The notes under the pieces were generated by a model, which was given only the letters and a program-made list of their open reading frames with translations, was not told the origin of the DNA and did not search any database. 13,805 bases of DNA, taken from JBMFOH01 sp049969715 [NCBI: bacterium]. Lineage in GTDB: Bacteria; DUMJ01. How positions within the stretch are numbered: the stretch's first letter is position 1; each line of letters starts with the position of its first letter. The translations under genes were made by a program, and so were the position numbers. Location of the stretch: NCBI GenBank assembly GCA_049969715.1, contig JBMFOH010000038.1:1-13805 (forward strand), written 5' to 3'. This document shows, piece after piece, positions 7,893 through 13,665 of this stretch.

Positions 7893-8564
7893 ATGGCTTT
7901 GATAAGTGAGAAGGATAGAGATTATCTTAGGAACGTATTTGCTAAGGAGTTAAAGAATGATGTAAAGGTAGTTTTCTTTACTCAGAAGTCAGGACTATTT
8001 GTTCCTGGGATTGAATGCGAGTATTGTAAAGAAACCGGAGAGTTAGTAAAAGAGTTAGGGGAACTATCCGATAAGATTAAGGTAGAAGTCTATGATTTTA
8101 TCTCTGATGAAGATATGGTTAAGCAGTACAATATAAAAAGAATTCCAGCTATAGCTCTAATAGGAGAGAAGGATTATGGTATTAGATTCTACGGGATTCC
8201 GTCAGGCTATGAGTTTGGCTCTTTAATTGAGGACATAGTAGACGTGAGTAAAAGAGAAACTAAGCTTTCTAAAGCAACCAAAGAGAGACTTTCTAAGATA
8301 GACAAGGAGGTAAATATTCAGGTATTTGTTACTCCTACTTGTCCATATTGCCCAAGGATGGTTTATATGGCTCATCAGTTTGCCTTTGAAAATGATTATA
8401 TCACTGCTGACATGGTAGAGGTGATAGAGTTTCCTCAATTGGGTAACTATTATGAGGTCTCGGGTGTGCCAAAGACGGTAATAAACGATAAAGAAGAGAT
8501 AGTAGGGGCAGTGCCTGAGGCTAGTTTTCTAGAAAGTATAGAGAAAGCAATAGACAAAGGATAG
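7893..8564 (+). CDS. Glutaredoxin-like protein disulfide oxidoreductase (two thioredoxin folds)
   Basis: Cytoplasmic thiol-disulfide exchange enzyme of 223 residues made of two tandem thioredoxin folds. The first carries redox motif CEYC (C42/C45) and the cis-proline loop RIPAI (P95). The second carries CPYC (C150/C153) and loop GVPKT (P193). There is no signal peptide. Length and the paired motifs match the PDO family of thermophilic archaea and bacteria, which is linked to disulfide formation or isomerisation in intracellular proteins. The gene follows rpoC by 21 bases with a good GGAGGG site (7877-7882), and a terminator follows it, so it is the last gene of the polymerase transcript. The product call is firm. 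Why it is coupled to RNA polymerase is unknown; a general role in high-temperature protein folding is an inference. Confidence 0.93.
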   Translation: MALISEKDRDYLRNVFAKELKNDVKVVFFTQKSGLFVPGIECEYCKETGELVKELGELSDKIKVEVYDFISDEDMVKQYNIKRIPAIALIGEKDYGIRFYGIPSGYEFGSLIEDIVDVSKRETKLSKATKERLSKIDKEVNIQVFVTPTCPYCPRMVYMAHQFAFENDYITADMVEVIEFPQLGNYYEVSGVPKTVINDKEEIVGAVPEASFLESIEKAIDKG

Positions 8565-8588
8565 GTTTTCATTTTTATGAAGTTACTG

Positions 8589-8616
8589 ATGGGACAGGTT
8601 TTCCTGTCCCATTTTT
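8589..8616 (+). terminator. Intrinsic terminator of the tRNA-yfcE-rpoBC-PDO unit
   Basis: ATGGGACAGG (8589-8598) pairs perfectly with CCTGTCCCAT (8603-8612) around a TTTT loop, and a T run continues to 8616. The T tract is on the plus-strand side only. The minus-strand operon, whose last stop codon lies at 8620-8622, meets the same hairpin but without a U-rich tail on its side, so termination there would be weaker. Confidence 0.88.
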
Positions 8617-8619
8617 CTC

Positions 8620-11130
8620 TTAAGCTAAGCTTCTATTTCTAGCTTCTAAAAGAAGCGTCCAATCCTCTTGACTGATAGGACGATCGAAACTTCTAAGTTG
8701 GCTTATTTTGAATCCATGTTTTTGGGCTAACCTTCTAAAATGAAGTATATTCTCTACAGATAGGTCTGTCCCAAGACTTATATCTGTGTAGCTATGTTCT
8801 AATGCAAGCATCATTGTTTCAGCCATACAAGCATAAACTAGTCCTCTTTCTAATCCGAAATTCCACCCTAAAGATGGCCTTCCTGGTACCTCTATGATAC
8901 CACCATCGATTACTAAGATATCTTGCCTTACCTCTTTTATCTTTGGACTTACGTTTGGTGGCCTAGATATATCACAGATAATAGCTCCAGGACTAACTAA
9001 GGTAGGATTAATGATCTCTATAGGACTATTGGTAGCAGTAACTATTATCTGGGATTTGGAGATAGCCTCATCTAGATTGGTAGTTATCTCTATTAATCGA
9101 GATTCTTCTATCTCTTGGGAGGTAAAGATATGTTCCCCTATACTTCCTTGAGGTGGTGTCCATCCCTTTTCTATCTGACCCTTGAGGTGTCTATAGATTT
9201 CTAGTTCTACATTGGTTAATCGTCTCAAGCTAGATTTAGGATGCTTTGGATTACCTACTAAGATTATCTTGTAGGCTTCCTCTCCCATAAGTACTGCAAG
9301 CGCCTTTCCGATAGAACCTGTAGCTCCTATTATCGCTACTGTACTTTGATTTAATTTGACATTGAGTTTCTGAGCGGCTAATTTTATTGCCTCAATACTT
9401 GAAGCTACTGTATAGCTATTACCTGTAGTAAGGGGAAGAACCTTTCCTTTGAGGAGAAGTCCTCCTCTAGATACTACCGAAGTATAAGCTCCAAGCCCTG
9501 CTATACGTGCCCCATTTTTATATGCTAATTTGAGAGCCTCCTCAAGTTCATTTAGAATTTTCTCTTGAGGTAACTCTAGCATTTGCTTAGCAGTATAAGG
9601 TAATGTGATGAATTCACCATAGGCACTTTCTCCAGAAAGTGACATTACCCTTGTCTGTCCTATAACAAATGGTCTTATAGTTTTGCTGCCAATCTCAGAT
9701 AATTTTTGAAGCTCTTCTCTAGTGAGGACAGAGAGAGTAGGGTCAAATTCCTGATAGTTTACCAGGTCAAGAGGGTGTACTAAAAAGGCAAATCTTCCTT
9801 CTTGAGGATGTTGGGATGGGTTATAGATATTCCATTGCTCCCTTTCTCTCGTAGATACAGAAGGGAATTCATTTCTCTTCATACCTAAGATAGGGGTAAG
9901 TATTTTTACAGTATTTCCATCATTAAGGGTCTCTATCACCCTTTCTAATGCATCTGAAACCCTTCTACACTCTTCCCAGGATGTTATAAATGACGGTTCC
10001 AAACGAATAACCCTATTGTTACTTAGTGTTGGGGCTAAGCGTATCTTTTCTGTATTGAGTAAATAACTTACTATTAAAGGAACAAGGTTTCCTTGTTCAG
10101 AGAGGACACTTAAAAGACACTGAGGGAAGTTAACCCTATCCATTTTAATCTCTATTCCTAAAAGGTATCCTTCTCCTCGTACATCCTTTATAACGTTAGG
10201 AAACCTTTCCTTTAGATTAGATAATTCTTGAAGAAGTCTCTCCCCATTCTCTTTTATATACCTGATTATAGCATTGTTATCTCTAGTTAACATCTCTAAG
10301 ACCTTTATTCCTATCATACTTGCTATATTATTTCCTGCAAAGGTGGAAGAATAATTTTTAATAAACTCTTCAGTATATGTCTCTTCTTTTAGAAGACATG
10401 CACTTATGGGATATATCCCTCCTCCTAGAACCTTTCCAATAATGAGTATATCAGGTATGATGCCCTCCTTTTCACAGGCAAATAACCTTCCTGTCCGTCC
10501 AAGTCCAGTTTGAACCTCATCTATGATAAATAGAACCCCGTATTTATGGCATATCTCCATAGCCTGAGAGAGATAACCTTGGGGAGGAATTATAATCCCT
10601 CCCTCTCCTTGGATAGGTTCTACTATAAATCCTGCGTAACTATCTGGATTTTCTATTAACTTTTTCTCTAGAGAAGAGATATTTCCATAAGCAACAGTAT
10701 CAAAGTCACCCATTGATAGTCCATGAAAACATCCTTCAGCAGCAAGGATCCTTCTCCTCTTGGTAGATGTCTGAGAAATTTTGACTGCTACACTTACAGC
10801 TTCACTACCTGTGGTGGCAAAGATTACATATCTAAATCCTTTTGGCGCAACTTCGATTATTTTTTCTGCCAGTTTTCCTGAAGCTTCCGTTATTGAGGCT
10901 TGAACTAAACTAGGAAGTTCTCTCTCTTTAATATCGTATAAAACCTCCCAGATTTCTCTTGAATTAAAACCAAAAGGTGATGCCCCAAAAGAGGATATAA
11001 AATCTAAGTAACAGTTTCCTCTATTATCATAGAGGTAATTATCTTTGCCTCTAACAAAGATCTTGTCCATACCTAGGGTTCTCAGTAGGTCTCCTAAGTA
11101 CGGATTAATATATCTGGTGAAACTGTCCAA
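8620..11130 (-). CDS. Fusion of class-III PLP aminotransferase and acyl-ACP reductase (AAR)-like domain
   Basis: 836 residues in one intact frame. Residues 1 to about 403 are an acetylornithine/ornithine-type class-III aminotransferase: phosphate-binding TTGSE (106-110), FHG (135-137), IDEVQTGLGRTG (203-214) with cofactor aspartate D204, Schiff-base lysine K233 in GKVLGGG, and T263. Residues about 446-836 resemble the cyanobacterial long-chain acyl-ACP reductase: FAFLVHPLDL start, LGAYTSVVSRGG (546-557), TTGNSYT (568-574), NADPH loop GATGSIG (602-608), IDGG (741-744), and YACMAET (766-772). C768 aligns with catalytic Cys294 of the Synechococcus elongatus enzyme. Inferred chemistry: reduction of an acyl-thioester to an aldehyde, then transamination to an amine; the substrate is unknown. 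The TTG start at 11130 follows AAGGAGG. It is the last gene of the minus-strand operon, 24 bases after the permease. Domain calls are firm; the combined reaction is inference. Confidence 0.88.
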   Translation of the reverse strand: MDSFTRYINPYLGDLLRTLGMDKIFVRGKDNYLYDNRGNCYLDFISSFGASPFGFNSREIWEVLYDIKERELPSLVQASITEASGKLAEKIIEVAPKGFRYVIFATTGSEAVSVAVKISQTSTKRRRILAAEGCFHGLSMGDFDTVAYGNISSLEKKLIENPDSYAGFIVEPIQGEGGIIIPPQGYLSQAMEICHKYGVLFIIDEVQTGLGRTGRLFACEKEGIIPDILIIGKVLGGGIYPISACLLKEETYTEEFIKNYSSTFAGNNIASMIGIKVLEMLTRDNNAIIRYIKENGERLLQELSNLKERFPNVIKDVRGEGYLLGIEIKMDRVNFPQCLLSVLSEQGNLVPLIVSYLLNTEKIRLAPTLSNNRVIRLEPSFITSWEECRRVSDALERVIETLNDGNTVKILTPILGMKRNEFPSVSTREREQWNIYNPSQHPQEGRFAFLVHPLDLVNYQEFDPTLSVLTREELQKLSEIGSKTIRPFVIGQTRVMSLSGESAYGEFITLPYTAKQMLELPQEKILNELEEALKLAYKNGARIAGLGAYTSVVSRGGLLLKGKVLPLTTGNSYTVASSIEAIKLAAQKLNVKLNQSTVAIIGATGSIGKALAVLMGEEAYKIILVGNPKHPKSSLRRLTNVELEIYRHLKGQIEKGWTPPQGSIGEHIFTSQEIEESRLIEITTNLDEAISKSQIIVTATNSPIEIINPTLVSPGAIICDISRPPNVSPKIKEVRQDILVIDGGIIEVPGRPSLGWNFGLERGLVYACMAETMMLALEHSYTDISLGTDLSVENILHFRRLAQKHGFKISQLRSFDRPISQEDWTLLLEARNRSLA

Positions 11131-11136
11131 TACTCG

Positions 11137-11143
11137 CCTCCTT
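11137..11143 (-). promoter_or_regulatory. Strong ribosome binding site fixing the TTG start of the fusion gene
   Basis: On the minus strand AAGGAGG lies 6 bases before TTG at 11130. It occupies the 24-base gap after the permease stop codon. The first in-frame ATG is residue 21, inside the conserved part of the aminotransferase, so TTG is the better start. Confidence 0.85.
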
Positions 11144-11154
11144 GTATCTACACA

Positions 11155-12156
11155 TTATGATTTCTTTTTTAATAAGAAAAGAAAGAATGGAGCACCTATA
11201 AGTGATGTGACTATACCTACTGGTATCTCATTTGGGGATAGGGCAATTCTTGCTACTAAGTCTGAGAGTACCAGAAGAACCGCTCCACCAAATAGGCTTG
11301 CAGGGAAAAGGATTCGGTTGTCTGGTCCTATAATCCTCCTCAATATATGTGGAATTATAAGCCCTACAAAACCTATTACTCCACTTACCGAAACTGCACT
11401 TGCCGTTAGAAGGGAAGAAAATATTATTAGGACCCTTCTTACTTGATGGGTATTAACTCCAAGGTTCTGAGCTTGTTCCTCCCCAAGGAGCATAATATTT
11501 GCCTCTCTTGTATACATAGATAATACTATACTACAGATTATAAAATATGGGAGTATAATTTTTACATGCTGCCATCCCCTCCCAGAAAATCCTCCCATAA
11601 GCCAGTATATAGAGCCATGGAGGGTAGTATCACTTAACAGGAGAAGGAGTGACATCAAGCCAGAGAGGAATGCATTAATCGCAAGTCCAGCTAGGAGGAG
11701 ATTCAGCATAGAATTATGCTGACCTCTGTAGGAGATAGAGTATACTAATAATACTGTAACTATACCTCCTATAAAGGCAAATATAGGAATAGAACTTAAT
11801 CCTAAAAATTGAACCTCTAATCTAAAAACAATAGCACTAACTGCTCCTAGAGCAGCCCCCGAAGAGACCCCTATTATATATGCATCAGCCATAGGATTCA
11901 TAAATAGGGATTGGAAGATTGCACCTACTCCTCCTAAAGATGCTCCAACTAATAACGCCAGAAGTACTCTAGGTAATCTTATATCTATTATTATTGGGTT
12001 ATAGCTAGTATGATTCCCTAAGACTCTTCCTCCTATATTCTCCATTATCTCCTTGAAGGGGAAATAGACTGTACCTATAGAAATGCTCAATAAGAAAGAG
12101 AATACAAGAATTATAAGGAGTGATAGAAATATTACTGCCTTTCTTTTGAATCTCAT
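11155..12156 (-). CDS. FecCD/BtuC-family ABC transporter permease
   Basis: Inner-membrane permease of 333 residues from the family importing siderophores, haem or cobalamin. The N-terminus has a short positive stretch and then a hydrophobic helix (about 8-29); many further hydrophobic segments follow. Family landmarks are RLPRVLLALLVGASLGGVGA (60-79), NPMADAYIIGVSSGA (87-101), LGEEQAQNLGV (224-234, in the cytoplasmic loop that contacts the ATPase), VSGVIGFVGLIIPHILRRIIGPDNR (257-281) and IPVGIVTSLIGAPFFLFLL (311-329). The length is normal and it looks intact. The usual binding protein and ATPase genes are absent from the window, so the substrate cannot be named. It lies 10 bases after the isomerase-like gene and 24 before the fusion gene. 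Its Shine-Dalgarno is poor (GAGC about 7 bases upstream), so it may rely on translational coupling. Confidence 0.93.
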   Translation of the reverse strand: MRFKRKAVIFLSLLIILVFSFLLSISIGTVYFPFKEIMENIGGRVLGNHTSYNPIIIDIRLPRVLLALLVGASLGGVGAIFQSLFMNPMADAYIIGVSSGAALGAVSAIVFRLEVQFLGLSSIPIFAFIGGIVTVLLVYSISYRGQHNSMLNLLLAGLAINAFLSGLMSLLLLLSDTTLHGSIYWLMGGFSGRGWQHVKIILPYFIICSIVLSMYTREANIMLLGEEQAQNLGVNTHQVRRVLIIFSSLLTASAVSVSGVIGFVGLIIPHILRRIIGPDNRILFPASLFGGAVLLVLSDLVARIALSPNEIPVGIVTSLIGAPFFLFLLKKKS

Positions 12157-12166
12157 ATATTAAGCT

Positions 12167-12982
12167 CTAAAGTAGCGGAGTTAGAAATTCTTTAGCCCTT
12201 AATATGTCTTTAATCTGCTGGTCTCCAGAGATTTCTCTCTCTATAGTTAATGCCCCGTTATATCCACAATCTTTCAGTTTGGAGATAAAGAGAGGATAGT
12301 TTACTCTTCCTTCTCCTAAAGGCTTTTCTACCCCTAAACTTCTTCCTCCAGTTGGATACTCTCCGTCTTTAGCATGGATACCCCTTACGAATCTTCCAAG
12401 TATATCTAATGCATCTATTGGATTAGCCTTTCCATACATTATAAGATTGGCAGGGTCTAGATTTATCCCTATATTATCCATTCCTATATCTTCTATAGTC
12501 CTAAGAAGGGTTGTAGGGGTTTCCTGACCTGTTTCGAAACAAAAGTACTGTTCATTTGCCCTAGAATACCTAACTATCTCTCTTAATGCTACAATCATCC
12601 CTGGATAATTAGGGTCATTGGGATTTTCAGGGATAAAACCTACATGGGTTATTATGTTGGGTACTCTAATGAATCTAGCAAAGTCCGAGCCCTTTTTCAA
12701 TGTCTCCAGCCTTATATATCGATATTCGAGTGGAACAAGCCCTAACGTTAATGGCCCTTCTGTAAAATTCCATACCCTTGGACCAGGCCATCCTACCCAA
12801 AACCCAGTAACTTCTATGTTATATTTTTCAATAAGATATCTTAATCTTTCTCCATTTTCTCTAGTGAAAAGTTCTGACTCCCAACATGCTATCTGACAGG
12901 TAGGTAGGTCTAAATCTTTTACCCTTTTAATAGGTTCTTCTATCTTTTTTGTAAGAGGGACAATAACTCCTAGTTTTAACAT
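12167..12982 (-). CDS. Sugar phosphate isomerase/epimerase-like TIM-barrel protein
   Basis: 271 residues of the xylose-isomerase-like TIM-barrel superfamily, which includes IolE, tagatose 3-epimerase and related enzymes. Likely metal ligands are E150 (CFETGQ), D176 (INLDPANL), H203 (GIHAKDG) and E248 (TIERE), the usual strand-end positions. H113 (THVGF) and the K205-D206 pair are also typical. There is no signal peptide, so it is probably cytoplasmic. Members of this family act on sugars, inositols or hydroxypyruvate, and the sequence alone does not tell which. The ATG at 12982 follows AGGAGG (12992-12997, minus strand). It lies 17 bases after phoU and 10 before the permease, so it is in the same operon, although none of these neighbours is a sugar-catabolism gene. 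Confidence 0.88.
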   Translation of the reverse strand: MLKLGVIVPLTKKIEEPIKRVKDLDLPTCQIACWESELFTRENGERLRYLIEKYNIEVTGFWVGWPGPRVWNFTEGPLTLGLVPLEYRYIRLETLKKGSDFARFIRVPNIITHVGFIPENPNDPNYPGMIVALREIVRYSRANEQYFCFETGQETPTTLLRTIEDIGMDNIGINLDPANLIMYGKANPIDALDILGRFVRGIHAKDGEYPTGGRSLGVEKPLGEGRVNYPLFISKLKDCGYNGALTIEREISGDQQIKDILRAKEFLTPLL

Positions 12983-12983
12983 A

Positions 12984-12997
12984 GAGGAATTCCTCCT
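12984..12997 (-). promoter_or_regulatory. Ribosome binding site of the isomerase gene, overlapped by a palindrome
   Basis: On the minus strand AGGAGG (12992-12997) lies about 9 bases before the ATG. The 12-base palindrome GAGGAATTCCTC (12984-12995) shares most of it, so a small hairpin with a GAGG/CCTC stem could partly mask the ribosome site. The stem has only 4 pairs, so any regulatory effect is uncertain. Confidence 0.45.
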
Positions 12998-12999
12998 TT

Positions 13000-13665
13000 T
13001 TAAATATTAGATTCCAATCTACCACGTTTTATCTTTTTCCCAGTAATAATATAATAGATTCTCTCCCCTATATTTGTTACATGGTCTCCTGCCCTTTCTA
13101 AAAAACGTGCTACTTGGGTTAGATATATAGCGTTAGTAATTAATCTTGGTGTCTCTAGTATATAACTTAAGATCTCTCTAAAGACCTGGTCATATAAAGC
13201 ATCTATCTCAAGGTCCTTCTTCCATATCTGATCTAGATATGAGACATCTGAGCTCTTAAGAGAGTCTTCGCAGTTAGAGATCATATCTACTACATTCTCT
13301 GCCATAACAGGAATATCTATAAGTGGTTTAAGGAGAGGTTTATTAGAAAGTATCTTGGCTGATTCTGCTACATGGGTAGCATAGTCACCAATACGTTCTA
13401 CGTCTGTGATTATTTTCCATATTCCACTTACTAATCTTATATCCTCATCTCTCTCAATATTACGAAGAAGTCTTATACAGGTATCCTCTATATTTAGTTC
13501 TATAGAATCTACCAACTTGTCACTATCTATTACTGTCTGAGCGAGTGTTCCATCCCTATTGGCGAGTGCCTCTACCCCTTTCTTTATGTTTTCTTTTACT
13601 AGAGACATCATATCCAGAGTTAAACCTTTAATGGCATCAAGATGATTCTTTTCTTCCATAGGCAT
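13000..13665 (-). CDS. phoU: PhoU-family phosphate signalling regulator
   Basis: 221-residue cytoplasmic, all-helical protein with the two PhoU repeats. Each carries the metal-binding ExxxD signature: E90-R-I-G-D94 in repeat one (about 10-105) and E190-R-A-G-D194 in repeat two (about 115-210). PhoU proteins link the PstSCAB phosphate importer to the PhoR/PhoB two-component system and keep the Pho response off when phosphate is plentiful. No pst or phoBR genes are in the window. The gene has its own promoter (13695-13723) and is first in the minus-strand operon. The ATG at 13665 follows CGAGGAGG by about 5 bases; ATG at 13659 is a less likely alternative. Length is close to the family norm (about 215-240 residues). 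Confidence 0.94.
   Translation of the reverse strand: MPMEEKNHLDAIKGLTLDMMSLVKENIKKGVEALANRDGTLAQTVIDSDKLVDSIELNIEDTCIRLLRNIERDEDIRLVSGIWKIITDVERIGDYATHVAESAKILSNKPLLKPLIDIPVMAENVVDMISNCEDSLKSSDVSYLDQIWKKDLEIDALYDQVFREILSYILETPRLITNAIYLTQVARFLERAGDHVTNIGERIYYIITGKKIKRGRLESNI

Follow-up and report, generated by a model that had tools for sequence, protein, structure and literature searches.

Whether one protein could take an acyl thioester all the way to an amine is the question raised by a frame on the minus strand of the window, by which we mean the whole 13,805-nucleotide stretch of DNA analyzed here. An earlier note on this DNA had placed the frame at 8620-11130 and read it as a class-III PLP aminotransferase (TA) joined to a domain of the acyl-ACP reductase (AAR) type, together forming a route from thioester to amine. 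Its coordinates, strand and length of 836 aa were as we found them, and the motifs TTGNSYT, GATGSIG and YACMAET (which begins at residue 766) and the residues K233, D204 and C768 that it named agree with the sequence. The features discussed below are as follows, A1 being an alignment of 33 fusion proteins.

8620..11130, minus strand: TA-AAR fusion gene, an intact 836-aa frame with a TTG start
11137..11143, minus strand: perfect Shine-Dalgarno sequence AAGGAGG, 6 nt 5' of the TTG start
9871..11130, minus strand: class-III PLP aminotransferase domain, residues 1-420 (Pfam PF00202; boundary from the model)
10519..10521, minus strand: D204, expected PLP pyridine-N aspartate (conservation among fusion loci)
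10432..10434, minus strand: K233, expected PLP Schiff-base lysine (conservation among fusion loci)
8623..9795, minus strand: acyl-ACP reductase domain, residues 446-836 (matches 6jzq, 6jzu and 6jzz by sequence and 6jzy_A by fold)
9409..9429, minus strand: TTGNSYT motif, residues 568-574 (T568, G570, N571 and T574 invariant in A1)
9307..9327, minus strand: GATGSIG nucleotide-binding loop, residues 602-608 (GxxGxxG conserved)
8827..8829, minus strand: C768, expected acyl-enzyme cysteine, opposite Cys294 of Synechococcus AAR as counted along the alignment
11155-13665: genes for PhoU, a xylose-isomerase-like TIM barrel and a FecCD/BtuC-type permease, in a run upstream of the fusion

Two Catalytic Domains in One Frame

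The joining of a class-III aminotransferase to an AAR-type domain is borne out by Pfam, by the sequence matches of the reductase half and by the folds. A Pfam scan of the 836-aa protein matched Aminotran_3 (PF00202) with an E value of 4.1e-74, and the best fold match of the TA domain is the aminotransferase of PigE (4ppm; Z 51.3, rmsd 1.7 Å, 389 aligned). Three NCBIfam aminotransferase models scored below their cut-offs: putrescine aminotransferase (235.5 bits against 612), ornithine aminotransferase (208.9 against 378.4) and argD (208.5 against 410.05). Behind Aminotran_3, Pfam gave only a weak match to Shikimate_DH. When the last 412 residues were searched alone, they matched the Synechococcus AAR structures 6jzq and 6jzu with an E value of about 4e-16, 6jzz with 9.6e-15 and the N-terminal half of PigE with 3e-30.

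An AlphaFold2 model of the full-length fusion, for which A1 was the input, gave a mean pLDDT of 90.3 and a pTM of 0.85. Together with homologues of equal order and length in many genomes, the quality of this model indicates that the 836-aa frame is real and did not arise by chance. Because the full-length fold search returned mainly aminotransferases, the reductase domain was modeled (pLDDT 90.6, pTM 0.90) and searched separately. It matched AAR 6jzy_A with a Z of 36.9 and an rmsd of 2.7 Å over 325 aligned residues and the carmabin TAD domain with a Z of up to 36.0; in the next family, other Rossmann enzymes, Z falls to 14.0. Judged from the model and the alignment, the window protein has both the AAR fold and a cysteine at the Cys294 position.

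Conservation and Distribution of the Fusion

Of 112 relatives that turned up in a scan across 84,980 species genomes, 80 loci were kept, 59 with the fusion (L001-L059) and 21 with a stand-alone AAR-like gene only (L060-L080). Three fusion loci are cut by contig ends so that the TA domain is partly seen, L056 is split between frames, and the residues of L014, L039, L048, L050, L053 and L079 were checked by tblastn. C768 is a cysteine and G602, G605 and G608 are present in 59/59 fusion loci and in 21/21 stand-alone loci. K233 and D204 are each retained in 57 of the 59 fusion loci, the remaining two being lost at contig ends, and K233 is invariant across A1. Further sets keep C768, GxxGxxG, K233 and D204 at 20 of 20 loci, 4 of 4 plasmid loci and 6 of 6 others; these sets overlap partly with the first 59, and L095 and L028 appear to be one contig, so a few of them are not independent. 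The earlier note had staked its reading on a C-terminal half within the AAR family and on a C768 constant among homologues, and the half falls with AAR and the cysteine does not vary in the loci checked.

In the phylum of Sporotomaculum (Firmicutes), 55 of 398 genomes have a match at E ≤ 1e-100. The reported match ends between residues 644 and 692 in 22 of these 55, and in the seven short matches that we checked (L102-L106, L125 and L126) the alignment continues across the reductase domain and includes C768. At the same threshold, fusion matches were found in 2 of 400 genomes of the phylum of the Chloroflexota loci. All three genomes examined of the phylum of L003 (G001-G003) carry the fusion, and since the window RpoB is 83% identical to theirs, the window most likely comes from this group. 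The names of several hosts mark them as syntrophs or sulfate reducers.

In a phylogeny built on the AAR region of 74 sequences, L056 having been left out, all fusions fall on one side of a branch supported at 100/100 and the stand-alone genes on the other. The window sequence clusters with L001-L003 (100/98), beside the Peptococcaceae-type fusions (99/95); outside this part of the tree the program flagged several long branches. This grouping fits a gene that is old and, in the window's part of the tree, mostly inherited.

Two unusual frames were also seen. An apparently larger fusion in G214 (L121, a 1521-aa open frame) was rejected, as the query matches TA-AAR only and the rest resembles, by eye, an open high-GC frame. 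At L108:8404-10937, on a large contig, TA and AAR are encoded in two different frames, either a natural split or a sequence error.

Comparison with Characterized Enzymes

Only PigE was cited in the earlier note, which treated the domain order as unusual; TamH of Pseudoalteromonas tunicata, whose domains come in the same order, is a direct precedent. In excerpts of its published description (PMC9594044), TamH has an N-terminal class-III TA and a C-terminal AAR-like thioester reductase, with the GxxGxxG motif and an AAR-type cysteine numbered C887. It is longer than the window protein (941 against 836 aa) and is encoded in the tambjamine cluster with TamA, an ANL-ACP protein. The same excerpts report that TamH binds PLP and, given L-Glu, turns C7-C14 aldehydes into amines, and that with C12-ACP supplied by TamA it forms the C12 amine dodecylamine in vitro, NADH serving and NADPH not (PMC9594044). 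C12 aldehyde was detected when the amino donor was omitted, and C12-CoA was not accepted, the ACP coming from the partner TamA (PMC9594044). The idea of a thioester-to-amine route in TA-AAR enzymes is thus already published, for TamH. Set against this description, the window enzyme is of the TamH type in the order of its domains, their families and their residues, as far as sequence can tell. The 13.8-kb window holds no pyrrole genes and no TamA counterpart, and the clustering of a TamA-like ANL-ACP gene with bipyrrole genes that marks the tambjamine pathway is not found within it, although a partner may be encoded farther away in the genome.

PigE of the prodigiosin pathway shares both domain families with the window protein but has them in the opposite order, AAR first and TA second. 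The window protein scores 462.5 bits against the PigE equivalog NF053554, which has a curated cut-off of 850. For PigE itself, thioester reduction and transamination were proposed from feeding experiments, according to excerpts of PMC8341465. Cyanobacterial AAR (6jzq, 6jzu, 6jzy and 6jzz) shares with the window protein the fold over 325 residues and the position of the catalytic cysteine at about 21-24% identity over the reductase domain, but it has no TA fusion and is a partner in alkane synthesis; the reductase domain alone scores 84.9 bits against the cyanobacterial AAR equivalog TIGR04058 (cut-off 449.7). The carmabin-pathway TAD domain (9e50, 9e4u and 9e56) has an equal fold, tied with AAR at Z 35.4-36.0 over 345-354 residues. 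Unlike the window protein it is, by its entry title, a domain of a biosynthetic assembly line, and our search of the open-licence PMC literature found no paper on it.

Gene Neighborhoods of Fusion and Stand-alone Genes

In the window the fusion closes a run of four genes that point the same way, after those for PhoU, the TIM barrel and the permease. We considered this operon-like run as a functional clue and rejected it, because G001 and G003 (L114 and L115) keep the first three genes with another gene next, so that the window arrangement is recent or accidental. The G002 contig (L116) ends within the TIM-barrel gene and is uninformative here. A Pfam scan of eight proteins of the 13.8-kb window found no AMP-binding or PP-binding family among them, and the window neighbors lend no support to any lipid role.

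Across fusion loci, 23 of 74 (window included) have no co-directional neighbor within 200 bp. Directly upstream lies a small HTH protein in 12 of 74 and another family, an M16 peptidase in the scanned member, in 8; one family, prolyl-tRNA synthetase in the scanned member, lies directly downstream in 16. The recurring scanned neighbors of Firmicutes and window-type fusions are housekeeping genes or a regulator, and no recognizable biosynthetic cluster was found in the Firmicutes and window-group fusion loci examined. The HTH regulator was rejected as a general partner: a homologue occurs in 18 of 31 genomes, where by contig positions it adjoins the fusion in 9, adjoins a stand-alone AAR in 4 and lies elsewhere in 5. 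Its homologue is absent from G001-G003, and the regulator is therefore uninformative for the window's group.

The stand-alone AAR-like genes (L060-L080), found in Firmicutes and Actinomycetota, share the C768 and GxxGxxG positions with the fusions but lack a TA domain and form the separate clade noted above. They often lie in a run with genes for pantothenate kinase, dihydrouridine synthase, an HTH protein, a 301-aa protein, GreA and lysyl-tRNA synthetase. The HTH family seen near fusions is also upstream of several of them, and searches of Pfam, NCBIfam and PDB sequences matched nothing to the 301-aa protein, its L094 copy included. In L094 the HTH and 301-aa genes are followed by a fusion where other loci have their AAR, an arrangement that hints at related roles for the fusion and the stand-alone AAR.

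Elsewhere in the window, three tRNA genes (Leu-GAG, Asp-GTC and Phe-GAA) lie at 151-438, and a 118-aa minus-strand frame at 3-356 that crosses two of them is probably no gene. A terminator-like hairpin is found at 8588-8613. Right after rpoB-rpoC, at 7893-8564, lies a gene for a protein disulfide oxidoreductase (TIGR02187, above cut-off). Genes of this kind are typical of thermophiles, and the organism may be one, this gene being the sole sign.

Fatty Acid-activating Partners in Relatives

Relatives in other phyla carry partners of a more telling kind. Two Chloroflexota loci encode FAAL, ACP, TA and AAR in single proteins (L033:7874-12490, 1538 aa; L035:706-5376, 1556 aa), with the phosphopantetheine site LDSL in the ACP part; each is possibly a complete machine from fatty acid to amine, to judge by its domains. 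Excerpts of the TamH and PigE papers (PMC9594044 and PMC8341465) hold no description of such proteins. In an Acidobacteriota locus a separate FAAL-ACP gene (L038:7947-9941, 664 aa) overlaps the TA-AAR gene, a pair that resembles TamA and TamH. In Leisingera and Lysobacterales the TA-AAR is extended by an AMP-binding, acyl-CoA-synthetase-like ligase to proteins of 1395 and 1433 aa (L117:8134-15542 and L057:6001-13509). A LolA-type gene (in Leisingera so named in the record itself) and an MMPL transporter gene flank the fusion gene; here a lipid is possibly made and exported. A Pseudomonas locus (L042) has an AMP-ligase, a fatty-acid desaturase and an ACP near the fusion, and Pseudomonas loci also have a LolA-like protein. 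An aldehyde dehydrogenase gene lies directly downstream of the fusion in Sporotomaculum (L006), with a homologue by clustering at the same place in L059. The fatty-acid-activating partners of these relatives support a fatty acyl chain on ACP as the substrate.

Proposed Reaction and Alternatives

We consider it probable that the window protein is a TamH-type bifunctional enzyme that turns acyl-ACP into an aldehyde and this into a primary alkylamine, a reading drawn from sequence, models and analogy. The AAR domain would load the acyl chain from acyl-ACP onto C768; as the neighborhood encodes no activating enzyme, fatty-acid synthesis is the probable direct source of this acyl-ACP. NAD(P)H held at GATGSIG would then give a hydride and the aldehyde would be freed, and the PLP domain, charged via K233 by glutamate or another amino donor, would convert it to the primary alkylamine. 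At the level of sequence the window protein has every feature that the TamH reactions are thought to need. The one-protein route of the earlier note is well supported by sequence, fold, conservation and the biochemistry of TamH, and its extension to the window protein is by analogy: we infer catalysis of the TamH reactions as well as the carrier, cofactor, chain length, amino donor and use of the amine.

The same two-step chemistry might instead act on a special thioester, for instance a ketoacyl, branched-chain or short-chain one, and yield a building block for a small molecule. PigE, whose substrate is given as a 3-acetyloctanoyl thioester in excerpts of PMC8341465, is the model for this, and proteobacterial relatives of the fusion do have exporters and further biosynthetic genes clustered around them. 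We nevertheless think it unlikely, as the Firmicutes and window loci examined contain no recognizable biosynthetic cluster and, in other phyla, the partners that were identified are enzymes that activate fatty acids.

Very improbable, in our estimate, is a role in breakdown, whereby an alkylamine would be deaminated and the aldehyde oxidized to a thioester for β-oxidation in an anaerobe. Both half-reactions are reversible in principle, the aldehyde dehydrogenase gene after the fusion in L006 would suit this direction, and so would the hosts named as syntrophs or sulfate reducers; against it, TamH, PigE and AAR were characterized in the reducing direction, FAAL-ACP fusions are sensible for synthesis only, and no gene for amine uptake is conserved near the fusion. 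We give the least credence to a plain aminotransferase for ornithine, acetylornithine or putrescine whose reductase tail has degenerated. The PLP domain does belong to one superfamily with these enzymes, as its putrescine and argD scores reflect, but the scores are far under the curated cut-offs, and two of the three genomes examined of the G001-G003 phylum have separate class-III paralogues in addition to the fusion. Moreover, the tail does not look degenerate, given that no fusion locus checked has lost the reductase cysteine or GxxGxxG.

Implications

Taking the TamH-type reaction as the preferred reading, we tentatively raise the possibility that many obligate anaerobes normally contain a dedicated long-chain amine, as part of a membrane lipid or as a signal, made from the acyl-ACP of fatty-acid synthesis by a single enzyme outside natural-product clusters, under HTH regulation in one lineage, and with the FAAL-ACP-TA-AAR proteins of Chloroflexota as complete one-protein machines. 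Among the matches listed in our search of the open-licence PMC literature, we found no description of TA-AAR fusions or fatty-amine enzymes in Firmicutes. What appears to be new, as far as that literature was searched, is the setting in anaerobes without a recognizable pathway, together with the fused relatives. Amine production from fatty acids has been proposed as a use of TamA with TamH (PMC9594044, in excerpts). If its activity were TamH-like, a thermostable single-chain TA-AAR or a Chloroflexota FAAL-ACP-TA-AAR protein could be a practical catalyst for the same conversion. For the biology of the hosts, a TamH-like activity would mean that a sizeable group of anaerobes produces fatty amines, and it would point to an unrecognized cationic lipid or signal.
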